Under the pieces are notes generated by a model that saw nothing but the letters and a program-made list of their open reading frames with translations, searched no databases and was not told the origin of the DNA. Shown piece after piece: positions 3,946 to 22,405 of a stretch of 42,495 nucleotides of DNA. The DNA is from a virus. Where the stretch lies: the IMG/VR virus record IMGVR_UViG_3300038678_000258, positions 1 through 42,495 of that record. One strand, 5' to 3'. Within the stretch, counting starts at the first letter, position 1. Every line of letters starts with the position of its first letter. Both the position numbers and the translations under genes were made by a program.

Positions 3946-4134
3946 CTACGTCACCGCGCCCAGATCGCTCTCGCGGATGTATTGCTCGTGCACCTGCCCG
4001 GTTGTGTCGGCGTACTGGACGACCGCGTACTTGCTTTCGTCGCGATCGTAGTGGAGCCCGACCACGGTGCCGGTCCAATCGGCCTTGCAGAATTCCACCT
4101 TGGCCTCAAGCCCAAACTTAAATTTCACGCCCAT
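3946..4134 (-). CDS. small beta-barrel-like protein, 62 aa
   Basis: The start at 4134 has a strong AAAGGAG six bases upstream. The sequence (MGVKFKFGLEAKVEF, WTGTVVGLHYDRDESKYAVVQYAD) alternates hydrophobic and polar residues like a small SH3- or KOW-type barrel. It lies between TerL and portal. Similar compact barrel-like proteins are encoded in the early operon (13514, 16272, 16496, 23096), though the sequence relation to those is not clear. Function unknown; an accessory head or packaging role is only inferred from position. Confidence 0.7.
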   Translation of the reverse strand: MGVKFKFGLEAKVEFCKADWTGTVVGLHYDRDESKYAVVQYADTTGQVHEQYIRESDLGAVT

Positions 4135-9782: not shown

Positions 9783-9958
9783 ACCGGCGGTCCTACATCC
9801 CAGGCCAATGCCCGTCTTAACGATCGTCGGGTTCCCCCGACACCTCCGAGCATCGCCTAGACCAGGCTGTCGCGCCCGCATGGTCTGGGCACGGGCGGAT
9901 ACTTCGACCAATCTTCCGATCTGTCGTGTCATCCTGCGACGTCGCCTCTACAGCCATA

Positions 9959-10024
9959 CACGGTGGCGGGAGTCGAACCCGCACCAACGGGCAAGCCCAT
10001 TATCTGCCATTGAACTACACCGTG
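9959..10024 (-). tRNA. tRNA-like element, degenerate (Gly-like)
   Basis: On the minus strand CACGGTG (10024-10018) and CACCGTG (9965-9959) form a perfect 7-bp acceptor stem. The T arm is perfect, GCGGG-TTCGACT-CCCGC, and the segment after the acceptor (TAGTTCAATGGCAGA) is a typical D-arm sequence. However, the whole is 66 nt, about six short. The D stem pairs only partly and the anticodon arm (AATGG/CCGTT) has no standard 7-nt loop, although CTTGCC resembles a glycine GCC loop. It is therefore a tRNA-like RNA or a decayed tRNA rather than a confident functional tRNA. Confidence 0.45.
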
Positions 10025-10099
10025 CCGGCGTCAAGCCCCGACGGTCACGGGGCTCCACCTAGGTACAAGGGCGACACAAGCCGCCCGGTAACCATCATC

Positions 10100-10190
10100 A
10101 GCCGGGCCGGGAATCGGACCCGGTTGCGATCGCTGACCGGGAATCGAACCCAGCTACCACCGCTACACCCCCCTTTCGGGTAACCCGGCT
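10100..10190 (-). tRNA. tRNA-like element with long variable region (Ser CGA-like)
   Basis: On the minus strand AGCCGGG (10190-10184) pairs with CCCGGCT (10106-10100), a perfect 7-bp acceptor, and the T arm is perfect (CCGGG-TCCGATT-CCCGG, 10123-10107). A second arm, CTGGG-TTCGATT-CCCGG (10153-10137), has a 7-nt loop that would read as anticodon CGA. It is separated by 13 nt, as in class II tRNAs. Total length is 91 nt. The 5' half is about ten bases too long and holds an extra ACCC/GGGT hairpin. The putative anticodon arm itself resembles a T arm, so two fused 3' halves are an alternative. Confidence 0.4.
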
Positions 10191-10272
10191 GCACTCTGTC
10201 CCGTCCTGGAGGTGGCCCGTAGCCCTAGCGAGCTATCTGGACCACGGACTCGCAGTCGCGTAGGACACCTTC

Positions 10273-10301: not shown

Positions 10302-10356
10302 ACTTTCTTGCAACTTTTTTTGCAAACCTATTTGCAACGCCCGTTGCAATGTGGTA
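10297..10356. repeat. five TGCAA repeats at exact 12-bp spacing (operator array)
   Basis: TGCAA begins at 10297, 10309, 10321, 10333 and 10345, each exactly 12 bp apart with unrelated 7-bp fillers; four of the five are TTGCAA, itself palindromic. The array covers the -35 elements of both divergent promoters. It is not a CRISPR, because the units are far too short. The most natural reading is a cooperative regulator-binding array; an iteron-type replication element is an alternative. Confidence 0.8.
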
Positions 10357-10360
10357 TAGT
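10332..10360 (+). promoter_or_regulatory. rightward (early) promoter of the divergent hub
   Basis: TTGCAA (10332-10337), a 17-bp spacer and TATAGT (10355-10360) precede the ATG at 10367 by six bases, so a leaderless first gene is expected. The -35 element is the fourth unit of the TGCAA array. It probably initiates the long rightward operon, including the hairpin chain 10680-11168. Confidence 0.7.
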
Positions 10361-10366
10361 TGAGGC

Positions 10367-10645
10367 ATGATCAACGAACCAACCCCGAGACTCCAGTCTC
10401 TGTCGTCCACGCGACCAAGCCCGAATCGCATCGGTTGCAGGCTGACAGATGCCAGCGGGAATGCGAAACCAACGCACCGGATGTTCTACGTGAATAACGT
10501 CACGCCTGGGAATATGGACCGACTGTTCGACCAGGTCGTCAAGGTCTGCGATCAGTACACGACGATCGACGATTTTCTTGCCTGGCTCCTGGAGGCCGAC
10601 GCCGATTATGTGGGCACCGCCATAGAAAGCGCGAGAAAAGGATGA
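10367..10645 (+). CDS. first early gene, hypothetical, probably leaderless, 92 aa
   Basis: The ATG follows the -10 box by six bases and has no Shine-Dalgarno. The N-terminal third looks disordered (INEPTPRLQSLSSTRPSPNR). The C-terminal half is helical (PGNMDRLFDQVVKVCDQYTTIDDFLAWLLEADADYVGTAIESA). It sits directly beside the TGCAA array, so a regulator acting on its own promoter is a reasonable guess, but no DNA-binding motif is evident. Confidence 0.7.
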   Translation: MINEPTPRLQSLSSTRPSPNRIGCRLTDASGNAKPTHRMFYVNNVTPGNMDRLFDQVVKVCDQYTTIDDFLAWLLEADADYVGTAIESARKG

Positions 10646-10679
10646 ACGAGACGAGGGGCTTAGTCGGGCGACAACGCCA

Positions 10680-11168
10680 CGTGGCGGGTGCCGCCGCACG
10701 AATTTGCGAGACCGCGTTTCACGACGCTTCTTTCCCCTCCTGGAGACACCGGGTAGCTTCGGTTAGTCGGTGTCTCCTTGCTTCGCGGATTCTTCATCGT
10801 ACGCCCAGCGCATCCATGTGGGAGCGCACCATCGGGTGCGTGGCTGGGATACTCCAAGCGGGCGCGGGGAAAACCAAGAAACCCGCGCCCGCAGGTTACC
10901 TCCATCGGGACGGCCGACCGCGCATTGCCGGCCGTCCCCACGAAATCACCCCCCGCCCAGTATGCGAGGCATCGCGATGGCAGGATCAGGGCGGGGGGTG
11001 CCTGCCACGGATTACCCGACCCCACTTGACCCCGGCGCGTAGCCGGTGGGGTCGGTGGATCGAGCACGGTTGAGGTCCGACAGGCACAGGCCGGACACGT
11101 GGAACGCCGTGCGAACCTGCCCGGGGGGCGGGACCTTCTTCGGGATGCTATGGCGGCGCCCGCTCCCC
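10680..11168 (+). ncRNA. chain of about eight to nine consecutive strong hairpins, no protein (structured RNA candidate)
   Basis: Near-perfect stems follow one another with little space between: 10680-10700, 10742-10751/10768-10777, 10804-10809/10843-10848 (with CGCACC/GGTGCG inside), 10858-10868/10882-10892 (11 bp), 10907-10916/10929-10938 (10 bp), 10947-10958/10989-11000 (12 bp), 11016-11025/11046-11055 (10 bp), 11064-11069/11107-11112 and 11123-11132/11159-11168. None has a U tract, so they are not ordinary terminators. Frames across the region on both strands give arginine-rich, domain-free translations. It lies on the early transcript between the first gene and the rest of the operon. 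Confidence 0.65.
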
Positions 11169-11182
11169 GTGGCCTATTGCTC

Positions 11183-12843: not shown

Positions 12844-13524
12844 ATGAACGTTACCTTCGACCCCGCCAAGCACACGTACACGACCGACCAGGGCCGTATT
12901 CTGCCGAGCGTGACCGAGATTCTCGGGGACGTCGGCGCCTACGGGCCGGACGCCGACCGGTACTGGACCGACGAGGCCCGCAATCGCGGCACGGCGGTTC
13001 ACAACTTGTGCGCCGAGTACAATTGCGGCCTACCGCTCGGCATGCTGTGGGAACGCTGTAGCGAAGTGCCCGCGTACGCTGAGCACCCCACGCTACCGCT
13101 CTACCTGGCGGGATGGGTGTCGTTCTGTCTGAAATATGCGGTCAAGTGCCGCCCCGATGGCATCGAGGCTGTGGTGTGGCATGAGGCGCTGGGGTACGCG
13201 GGCACTGCCGATCTGATCACTAGCCATATGTTTGACTGGCATTGCCCCGGGGCGTATCACCAGTGCATCATCGACATCAAGACCGGCCAACGGCACCCCG
13301 CACATCGGCTCCAGACCGAGGCGTACCGTCTCGCTTGGCGATCGGCGCACCCCGGGGAAGTGGCGTTCACCTCTCGCGCATGCGTCTATCTGTCGGCGGA
13401 CGGGACCTACGAGCTGGTCCGTCACACCAAGCACGAAGACACCAGCGCATGGATGTGCGCCTTCGGATGGCGCAACTGGAGATTCAATAACGGCCTACTC
13501 GAAAGGAGGGACGATGAAGCTTGA
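12844..13524 (+). CDS. PD-(D/E)XK family nuclease
   Basis: A 226-aa protein with the core pattern of Cas4/AddB-like PD-(D/E)XK exonucleases. LPSVTEIL lies near residue 20, GTAVHN near 50, GTAD at 120-123, IDIKTG at 143-148 (Asp 144, Lys 146) and QTEAYRLAWR from 157. The Asp-IDIK pair is the metal-binding catalytic core. Such enzymes resect double-strand ends and are often paired with a RecT annealase, which is encoded downstream. The ATG at 12844, three bases after the previous stop, is chosen over an upstream start at 12808. Confidence 0.8.
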   Translation: MNVTFDPAKHTYTTDQGRILPSVTEILGDVGAYGPDADRYWTDEARNRGTAVHNLCAEYNCGLPLGMLWERCSEVPAYAEHPTLPLYLAGWVSFCLKYAVKCRPDGIEAVVWHEALGYAGTADLITSHMFDWHCPGAYHQCIIDIKTGQRHPAHRLQTEAYRLAWRSAHPGEVAFTSRACVYLSADGTYELVRHTKHEDTSAWMCAFGWRNWRFNNGLLERRDDEA

Positions 13525-21032: not shown

Positions 21033-21266
21033 ATGAAGCGAGAAGAGCCCGGGCACTGCCCGTTCTGCGGACACCGGATGGAGGTGAGGCGATGGAAACA
21101 GGACAGCCGTGGCCTCGCCTTGTCGTATCGCGGCTGGCGTTATATGGCCGGTTGCGGTCGGAGGGAATGCCCGATCCGACCGTGCACGGAAGATCGTAGT
21201 AGTCGCGCACGAGTCGTCCGCGAAATCAACACACGGACAGAACCAAAAAAGGAGAATCAGACATGA
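21033..21266 (+). CDS. Lar-like zinc-finger protein, 77 aa
   Basis: The start at 21033 has GGAGGATCAG upstream. CPFCGHRMEV at residues 9-18 and CGRREC later form a C4 finger. The CPFCG opening is typical of Lar-type restriction-alleviation proteins and related phage zinc fingers, but the rest is too short to assign anti-restriction activity. It overlaps the start of the glycoside-hydrolase-like gene (ATGA). Confidence 0.6.
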   Translation: MKREEPGHCPFCGHRMEVRRWKQDSRGLALSYRGWRYMAGCGRRECPIRPCTEDRSSRARVVREINTRTEPKKENQT

Positions 21267-22405
21267 ATGGACTAGCCCGAACGTTTCTGCGCGACAGCGA
21301 ACTGCGCTTGCCGACAAGCAAGCAGGCGCTGCCCGAGACGCACGTCACGGCCCAGCTGGGCCCGTACGAGGCTATCTGGGCAGCGCCGCCGCTCGCCAGC
21401 AAACACGGCAACCATGCGGCCTACGAGCTCCTGCGCCGCCACCGCCCGGATACGATGCTCTGCTGCGCCTACTGGGCGATCTCGCTCACCCGGCAGGCGG
21501 ACTACGGGTGGTACAGGTGGGAGCCGATGCTGCGACATCCGGAGTGGTTTCTGGAGCGTGATGAAAAGTGGGCCCTGTACGATGCCGACGATAAGTATCC
21601 GGCATACTACGTGGACGTAACCAACCCCGAATTCCGTGCATTCGCCCTGGCCGAGATGGTCGCATGGGTCCGCGGCGAGAAGCACGAGCCCCTGCTGGCC
21701 GCCCCGGGCCTGTCGTTCGACGCACTTGGCGCGGACATTACGTGCATGGGGATGGGGCGGATGGGCCACGTTGTGGGCGGGAAGGTCGCTAGGGTTCGTG
21801 AGGATCGTGTCGCGGACTGGGACCGGGGAATGTGTTTGCTGCTCGCTGACCTCAGCAGTGCCCTCAACAGCCTCGGCAAGTGCGTGATCGCGAATCACAC
21901 GTACGACTACCGGCTCGATTCGTGGGGGTCCAAGGACTGGACACGGCTTACAGATGCCGTGTCTGGCGGGGGCCTGATGACCGAGAACCCGCTATCGGAG
22001 AGGGGGAAAGATACATATTTCGGCGGGCACGACTGGCTGAAGGCCATGCGATGGCACGAGCAGCTCACGCGCGCACACGGGCTCCGCGATTGGTGGGTGG
22101 GGTATCCCAAGACCGAGCAGGAATTCTGGTACCTGTACTGCTCGTACTTGCTCACCTACAAGCCGGGGCTGAGCCTCATCACCCTCGACTGGCCAAGCGG
22201 CGAATCTCATCCGCAGGGCCGTCGCTGGCATGAGGCATACGACATGATGATCGGCAAACCGCTGGGCGAGCGGAAACAGTTCAGCACGTGCTTTGAGCGG
22301 CATTTCGAGAACGAGGCCCTGGTCATCGTCAACCCGACGGAATTCCCGGCGCGGATATGCCGCGGCGAGGTGATGCCGCCGATGTCGGGGAGGATCTTGC
22401 AGTGA
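21263..22405 (+). CDS. TIM-barrel glycoside-hydrolase-like protein (GHL15/DUF4015 type)
   Basis: A 380-aa protein preceded by AAGGAGAATCAGAC. Features fit the putative glycosyl-hydrolase superfamily: CAYWAISLTRQADYGWYRWEPM, HPEWFL, then YYVDVTNPEFRAFALAEMVAWV and LSFDALGAD, where the aspartates lie at barrel strand ends. These are followed by CVIANHTYDYR and LMTENPLSERG. There is no signal peptide or membrane segment. The gene lies in the early region, not with tail genes. It might act on the host envelope (no endolysin is otherwise found), on capsule, or on intracellular sugar. Substrate unknown. Confidence 0.6.
   Translation: MNGLARTFLRDSELRLPTSKQALPETHVTAQLGPYEAIWAAPPLASKHGNHAAYELLRRHRPDTMLCCAYWAISLTRQADYGWYRWEPMLRHPEWFLERDEKWALYDADDKYPAYYVDVTNPEFRAFALAEMVAWVRGEKHEPLLAAPGLSFDALGADITCMGMGRMGHVVGGKVARVREDRVADWDRGMCLLLADLSSALNSLGKCVIANHTYDYRLDSWGSKDWTRLTDAVSGGGLMTENPLSERGKDTYFGGHDWLKAMRWHEQLTRAHGLRDWWVGYPKTEQEFWYLYCSYLLTYKPGLSLITLDWPSGESHPQGRRWHEAYDMMIGKPLGERKQFSTCFERHFENEALVIVNPTEFPARICRGEVMPPMSGRILQ

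Follow-up and report, generated by a model that had tools for sequence, protein, structure and literature searches.

A phage early region carries a member of an apparently undescribed RNA family widespread in Phycisphaerae

Background

The early operons of phages lambda and HK022 contain antitermination sites, named nut and put, respectively. The locus described here is similarly placed, between the first gene of an early promoter and the recombination genes, and would likewise form hairpins in the nascent transcript, but its RNA family is also found free-standing in host chromosomes and there is no evidence of an antitermination factor. A second point of comparison comes from bacterial small RNAs (sRNAs), in which the binding of Shine-Dalgarno (SD) sequences by C-rich motifs is an established mechanism (PMC3053349). 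Staphylococcus aureus RsaE and RNAIII have, like the present element, a C-rich motif that is conserved, lies in a loop or an unpaired stretch and is able to bind an SD sequence (PMC3053349); they differ in belonging to another phylum and in showing no sequence homology to the element (no Rfam match was obtained), whose anti-SD role is putative. AgvB, an anti-sRNA of E. coli O157, is likewise encoded by a phage and has been proposed to disturb a small-RNA circuit of its host; it mimics the target of a host sRNA (PMC4104026), whereas the RNA described here is homologous to the host RNA. GOLLD and ROOL are, like this locus, large hairpin-rich noncoding phage regions near a tRNA-like gene, but their covariance models do not match it and the part conserved here is only about 60-95 nt long (PMC12286853).

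The DNA analyzed (the window) is the 42,495-nucleotide IMG/VR virus record IMGVR_UViG_3300038678_000258. The original prediction was that a chain of about eight to nine strong hairpins behind its first early gene is a candidate novel structured phage RNA. Here, we report that part of this chain, positions 10725-10784 of the plus strand, belongs to an RNA family found widely in Phycisphaerae (Planctomycetota) and absent from Rfam 15.

Results and discussion

The phage and its early region

The window encodes a large terminase subunit (TerL), a Mu-type portal protein, a Mu-like capsid protein (gpT), RecT, an exonuclease and a replication initiator. Structural genes lie mostly on the minus strand, while the early genes are read from a promoter on the plus strand (Table 1). 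TTGCAA repeats at 10308-10349 lie around this promoter and opposite a promoter-like site on the minus strand, and look like operators of the kind used by a phage repressor. The 92-aa product of the first early gene matched no PHROG and no Pfam family above the cut-off; this gene is the probable carrier transcript of the RNA. The exonuclease gene is the first of a block that continues with e13683, RecT and RusA. A 380-aa protein encoded at 21263-22405 (+) matches the hypothetical glycosyl hydrolase family GHL15, just over the curated cut-off.

A tRNA-like element had been noticed close to the hairpins, and a tRNA-like gene is indeed present at 9958-10024 (-). It scores 43.6 bits with the Rfam tRNA model, while ARAGORN names no anticodon (reported as 'tt'); its anticodon arm looks shortened. 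A second tRNA-like fold at 10095-10200 (-), with an 8-bp acceptor-like stem and two T-arm-like hairpins (GGGTTCGATTCCC and GGGTCCGATTCCC), was not called as a tRNA.

The best match to TerL (39%) is in a Phycisphaerae metagenome-assembled genome. Portal homologues (E ≤ 1e-40, up to 44% identity) were found in 58 genomes of a sample of 298, whose class name, Phycisphaerae, was taken from one locus (L083, the source of G001); some genomes carry up to four copies, and these Mu-type portal relatives apparently make up a large, little-studied prophage group. Phycisphaerae are the likely host class of the phage. In tblastn comparisons, no early region was common to the window and the relatives of its TerL and portal protein (up to 44% identity), and searches of viral contigs with the 92-aa protein, RecT, the exonuclease, e13683 and RusA found no relatives. 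At the DNA level, the whole region gave no useful match in phage and plasmid collections, and three short matches to Planctomycetota genomes (L182-L184) were rejected as being of chance size.

Table 1. Positions of the early-region features and of other genes referred to in the text
Feature	Position	Strand	Details
Methyltransferase gene, 264 aa	7742-8536		among the mostly minus-strand structural genes
Early promoter	10332-10360	+	TTGCAA-17-TATAGT, TG preceding the -10 box; consensus scan
First early gene, 92 aa	10367-10645	+	coding score 0.16
GAGGGG, complementary to CCCCUC of the seed (10734-10739)	10653-10658	+	paired when the local sequence is folded at minimum energy
Pair of small hairpins, of 4 bp and 7 bp	10667-10697	+	base-pair probabilities
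RNA subdomain: 11-bp closing helix, small hairpin (10714-10727), seed, terminator-type hairpin	10700-10792	+	
Homologue of the host RNA family	10725-10784	+	host-only model R3, 53.3 bits, E = 1e-12
Seed CUUCUUUCCCCUCC, putative anti-Shine-Dalgarno	10727-10740	+	14 of 14 nt identical to most host copies
Terminator-type hairpin, 10 bp plus 4-bp inner helix, C(UUCG)G cap	10742-10777	+	
Further hairpins, and weaker ones	10799-11132	+	10858-10892 (11 bp), 10907-10938 (10 bp), 10947-11000 (12 bp), 11016-11055 (10 bp), 11116-11132
PD-(D/E)XK exonuclease gene	12844-13524	+	PHROG 298

The hairpin chain

A chain of hairpins without a credible gene spans 10667-11132. Five perfect Watson-Crick stems of 10-12 bp (that of the terminator-type hairpin and the four whose lengths are given in Table 1) are packed into 315 nt, and of the seven perfect hairpins in the window that reach 10 bp, five are in this region. 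In composition-matched Markov sequence, a 537-nt region contained a mean of 0.05 such hairpins, with a maximum of two in 500 trials. Together with shorter helices at 10667-10678, 10681-10697, 10714-10727, 11032-11046 and 11116-11132, about nine or ten hairpins were counted, and the fold of the whole region is more stable than expected on both strands (z = -4.25 on the plus strand and -4.1 on the minus strand). The chain foreseen from the letters is thus real, and several of its details were borne out: a UUCG loop is present at 10758-10761, and no plus-strand stem is followed by a good U tract. The same is true of the reported lack of a plausible protein. Coding on either strand was rejected, as the open reading frames score like wrong frames (-0.16 and -0.24 log2 units per codon versus approximately +0.12 to +0.42 in confident genes) and match no PHROG or phage protein. 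As anticipated, the region matched no named class, and it is not a large RNA of the GOLLD or ROOL type: Rfam covariance models, including those of GOLLD, ROOL and OLE, gave no match.

The strands differ in one part of the chain. The subdomain at 10700-10792, in which flank 10700-10710 pairs with 10782-10792, folds at -42.0 kcal/mol (z = -4.97 against shuffled sequences) on the plus strand versus -29.0 kcal/mol (z = -1.42) on the minus strand, and the hairpin at 10742-10777 at -25.3 versus -17.1 kcal/mol. This bias is due to G-U pairs and the C(UUCG)G cap. Because the fold is strand-specific, the acting molecule is most likely an RNA read from the early promoter.

An RNA family of Phycisphaerae

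As the TerL and portal matches pointed to Phycisphaerae, a covariance model (R1) built from one sequence, 10700-10792, was searched against the 298 genomes of this sample, where it matched 29 (E ≤ 0.01; best E-value 3.8e-7). These matches have in common CUUCUUUCCCCUCC, a motif that had not been picked out beforehand, followed by a stem GGAAAGCACCG...CGGUGCUUUCU, frequently capped by CUUCGG, and a U tract. A second model (R3) was built from an alignment (A4) of 20 host copies with the window excluded; since it was a model of the window sequence that first retrieved the host copies, this sample leans towards that sequence. At E ≤ 10, the sole match to R3 in the 42.5-kb window was the element listed in Table 1. 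The exact seed did not occur in any of 150 shuffled windows. On this sequence comparison, there is little doubt that 10725-10784 is homologous to the host family.

Members of the family consist of the nearly invariant, unpaired CUUCUUUCCCCUCC and a covarying hairpin of the terminator type. With R3 at E ≤ 1e-5, the family was found in 140 of the 298 genomes, mostly in one to three copies and at most in five. Across a phylum-wide sample it was found in 14 of 392 genomes, all of which were from the Phycisphaerae sample except for one marginal match (7.5e-4). Among 52 distinct aligned sequences, seven of the 11 stem pairs show changes on both sides and 98.8% of cells are paired; none of 500 shuffles was as good and slid controls came nowhere near. 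Covarying stems in homologues, which the original prediction had named as its check, were therefore found for 10725-10784.

The host copies occur in varied contexts (gene names were assigned by eye from translations): downstream of nrdJ, often with rpsP-trmD next, downstream of mnmE, and elsewhere. For several copies the next gene is convergent, and for two (L280 and L281) both neighbors are on the opposite strand. Of 55 copies, 27 have a TATAAT-like -10 box with no more than one mismatch in the stretch 40-115 nt upstream, versus 8% of control windows. With a -10 box of their own in about half of the cases, and with neighbors that vary and in some cases both lie on the opposite strand, the host copies look like free-standing small-RNA genes. 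A U tract typically follows the stem, and host copies qualify as intrinsic terminators (GC-rich hairpin plus U tract). In one host copy (L217, around 4001-4095), the flanks GGUUCCGC and GCGGAACC form a closing helix much like that of the window copy. Eleven host loci gave no Rfam match at the gathering score, and a permissive scan of a typical copy (L258) returned only chance-level matches. A literature search found no small-RNA work on Phycisphaerae, and the family is apparently an undescribed small RNA.

The window copy and its surroundings

Compared with the family majority, the stem of the window copy has 10 of 11 pairs intact and three double changes; its G-C pair 20-73 is unique within the aligned set. 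The U tract is replaced by the tail UUGCUUCG, and the terminator scan of the plus strand did not list the hairpin at 10742-10777. A consensus promoter scan detected no promoter-like site from 10360 to the element. The window copy thus seems to be constrained as an RNA while no longer being a stand-alone gene or a good terminator. It is transcribed, if at all, from the early promoter and, lacking a promoter and U tract of its own, would need processing to yield a discrete small RNA. GAGGGG at 10653-10658 may sequester the seed, as judged from the predicted fold. G-rich complements of the seed are also found upstream of 24 of 55 family copies, versus 14% of controls.

The remainder of the chain is different. 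For 10799-11132, model R2 produced one weak match in the 298 genomes and blastn found no relative beyond chance. Counting hairpins of 9 bp or more in the downstream stretch, the window has four and family members elsewhere at most two; when 2.4 Mb of TerL-related loci were scanned for hairpin density, no stretch with five hairpins turned up. The hairpins at 10799-11132 could form an additional RNA domain, act as a stability element or do something different. The prediction of a novel structured phage RNA holds in that the region is a structured, non-protein RNA region, but the first third does not stand as a new, independent ornate RNA: the homologous part is a single small-RNA module of about 60-95 nt common to the host class, and not an architecture that takes in all of the hairpins. 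The stretch 10799-11132, which has no homologue, may or may not belong to a novel large RNA.

Copies in other viral contigs

A pattern scan of IMG/VR viral contigs detected the element in L253, L254, L256 and L257, and R3 confirmed each of these (51-69 bits); a fifth candidate, L255, was rejected as a family member. L254 and L256 bear clear phage early genes (RecT, RusA, methyltransferase; helicase), while the viral nature of L253 and L257 was unconfirmed by the few proteins tested. The element is also found in contigs of 216 kb and 548 kb. The copies in L254, L256 and L257 have the terminator U tract, and small CxxC (zinc-ribbon-like) proteins begin approximately 90-130 nt past the element in these three contigs. 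L254 shares the exonuclease (tblastn, 30% identity, E-value 2.6e-19), e13683, RusA and a methyltransferase with the window. Its element lies on the same strand as, and directly before, a small zinc-ribbon-like gene and the exonuclease gene, and the exonuclease-RecT-RusA block follows the element in both phages. The head of the early recombination block is therefore a common site of the element in two strongly diverged phages.

Proposed function and alternatives

Our preferred reading, to which we assign a probability of roughly one half, is that the phage element is a host-derived anti-SD RNA acting as a mimic or decoy. The C-rich stretch would be an anti-SD seed that pairs with ribosome-binding sites of the GGAGGGG type, and the early transcript would supply a mimic or decoy of the host RNA that, early in infection, either reinforces the repression exerted by that RNA or soaks up its partners. 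The hairpins would fold and stabilize this transcript and, because the hairpin has lost its terminal U tract, RNA polymerase would read through into the exonuclease-RecT-RusA operon. Both the anti-SD seed and a phage action on host translation are suggested by precedent (RsaE and RNAIII; AgvB). In 12 Phycisphaerae genomes, GGAGGGGAA is four times as common before ATG as the reversed pattern (52 versus 13), an excess that may reflect only SD sequences. A search for conserved targets found a gene family in common at only two of 30 loci and no target emerged; seed matches elsewhere in the phage were not above chance.

The main rival to an anti-SD mimic or decoy is a regulated terminator in the early operon, which is possible but on the unlikely side. 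GGAAAG would pair either downstream, forming the terminator, or upstream with CUUUCC, forming a hairpin that displays a CCUCC loop, and a factor would decide on read-through. All 54 members allow an alternative hairpin of 4-7 bp, pair 6-23 covaries (CG in 33, UA in 13), and the L254 terminator lies about 75 nt ahead of downstream early genes. Only one of the six alternative pairs shows double changes, however, and pair 8-21 is unpaired in 14 cells. In many hosts the gene that follows is convergent or far away, leaving nothing to switch, and the window copy has no U tract, so that there is little to antiterminate; the free-standing host copies also argue against switching as the ancestral role. 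A broader version, which we regard as doubtful, combines the two ideas: a class-wide RNA, repeatedly acquired by Phycisphaerae phages, that switches between a terminator and an anti-SD loop, heads the early recombination operon, controls read-through and, once released, reprograms host translation, and that is here built into a longer hairpin chain with further parts.

Loss of the U tract and promoter, and downstream hairpins without homologues, would also be expected of a host small-RNA gene that is losing its function after acquisition by the phage, with the chain as stable filler or an mRNA-stability element. Such decay is unlikely given the compensatory double changes and intact 14-nt seed, which imply selection on the RNA, and the intact copies in four other viral contigs, one of them at the same place. 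Unlikely, too, is a new large ornate RNA (approximately 10610-11163) that has swallowed the host module. Complementary arms at 10610-10625 and 11148-11163 bracket the chain and pair at 15 of 16 bases with a predicted probability of 1.0, and the z-score of the whole region is low (-4.25), but about 40 independent 15-of-16 helices (G-U allowed) occur in the window, so the closing helix was judged not significant alone; moreover, one arm lies inside the first gene and the whole has no homologue. Finally, it is common for temperate phages to integrate at the 3' ends of RNA genes, and the shared stretch is such an end, which the phage could bear as an attP site through integrating there. This is highly improbable: no integrase was found among the window proteins scanned (part of the open reading frames), the window copy lacks the U tract, carries compensatory changes and is identical to no host copy seen, and the element is also present in the 216-kb and 548-kb contigs.

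Conclusions

The locus represents an apparently undescribed RNA family that most likely works like known anti-SD sRNAs and appears here in an unusual, phage-embedded form, which suggests that phages carry and reuse a host regulatory RNA. Phycisphaerae thereby gain a conserved, apparently undescribed RNA family of which phages carry members, and the element links an orphan phage to this host class. It also raises a testable question: do phages, as infection begins, redirect translation by means of a copied anti-SD RNA of the host?
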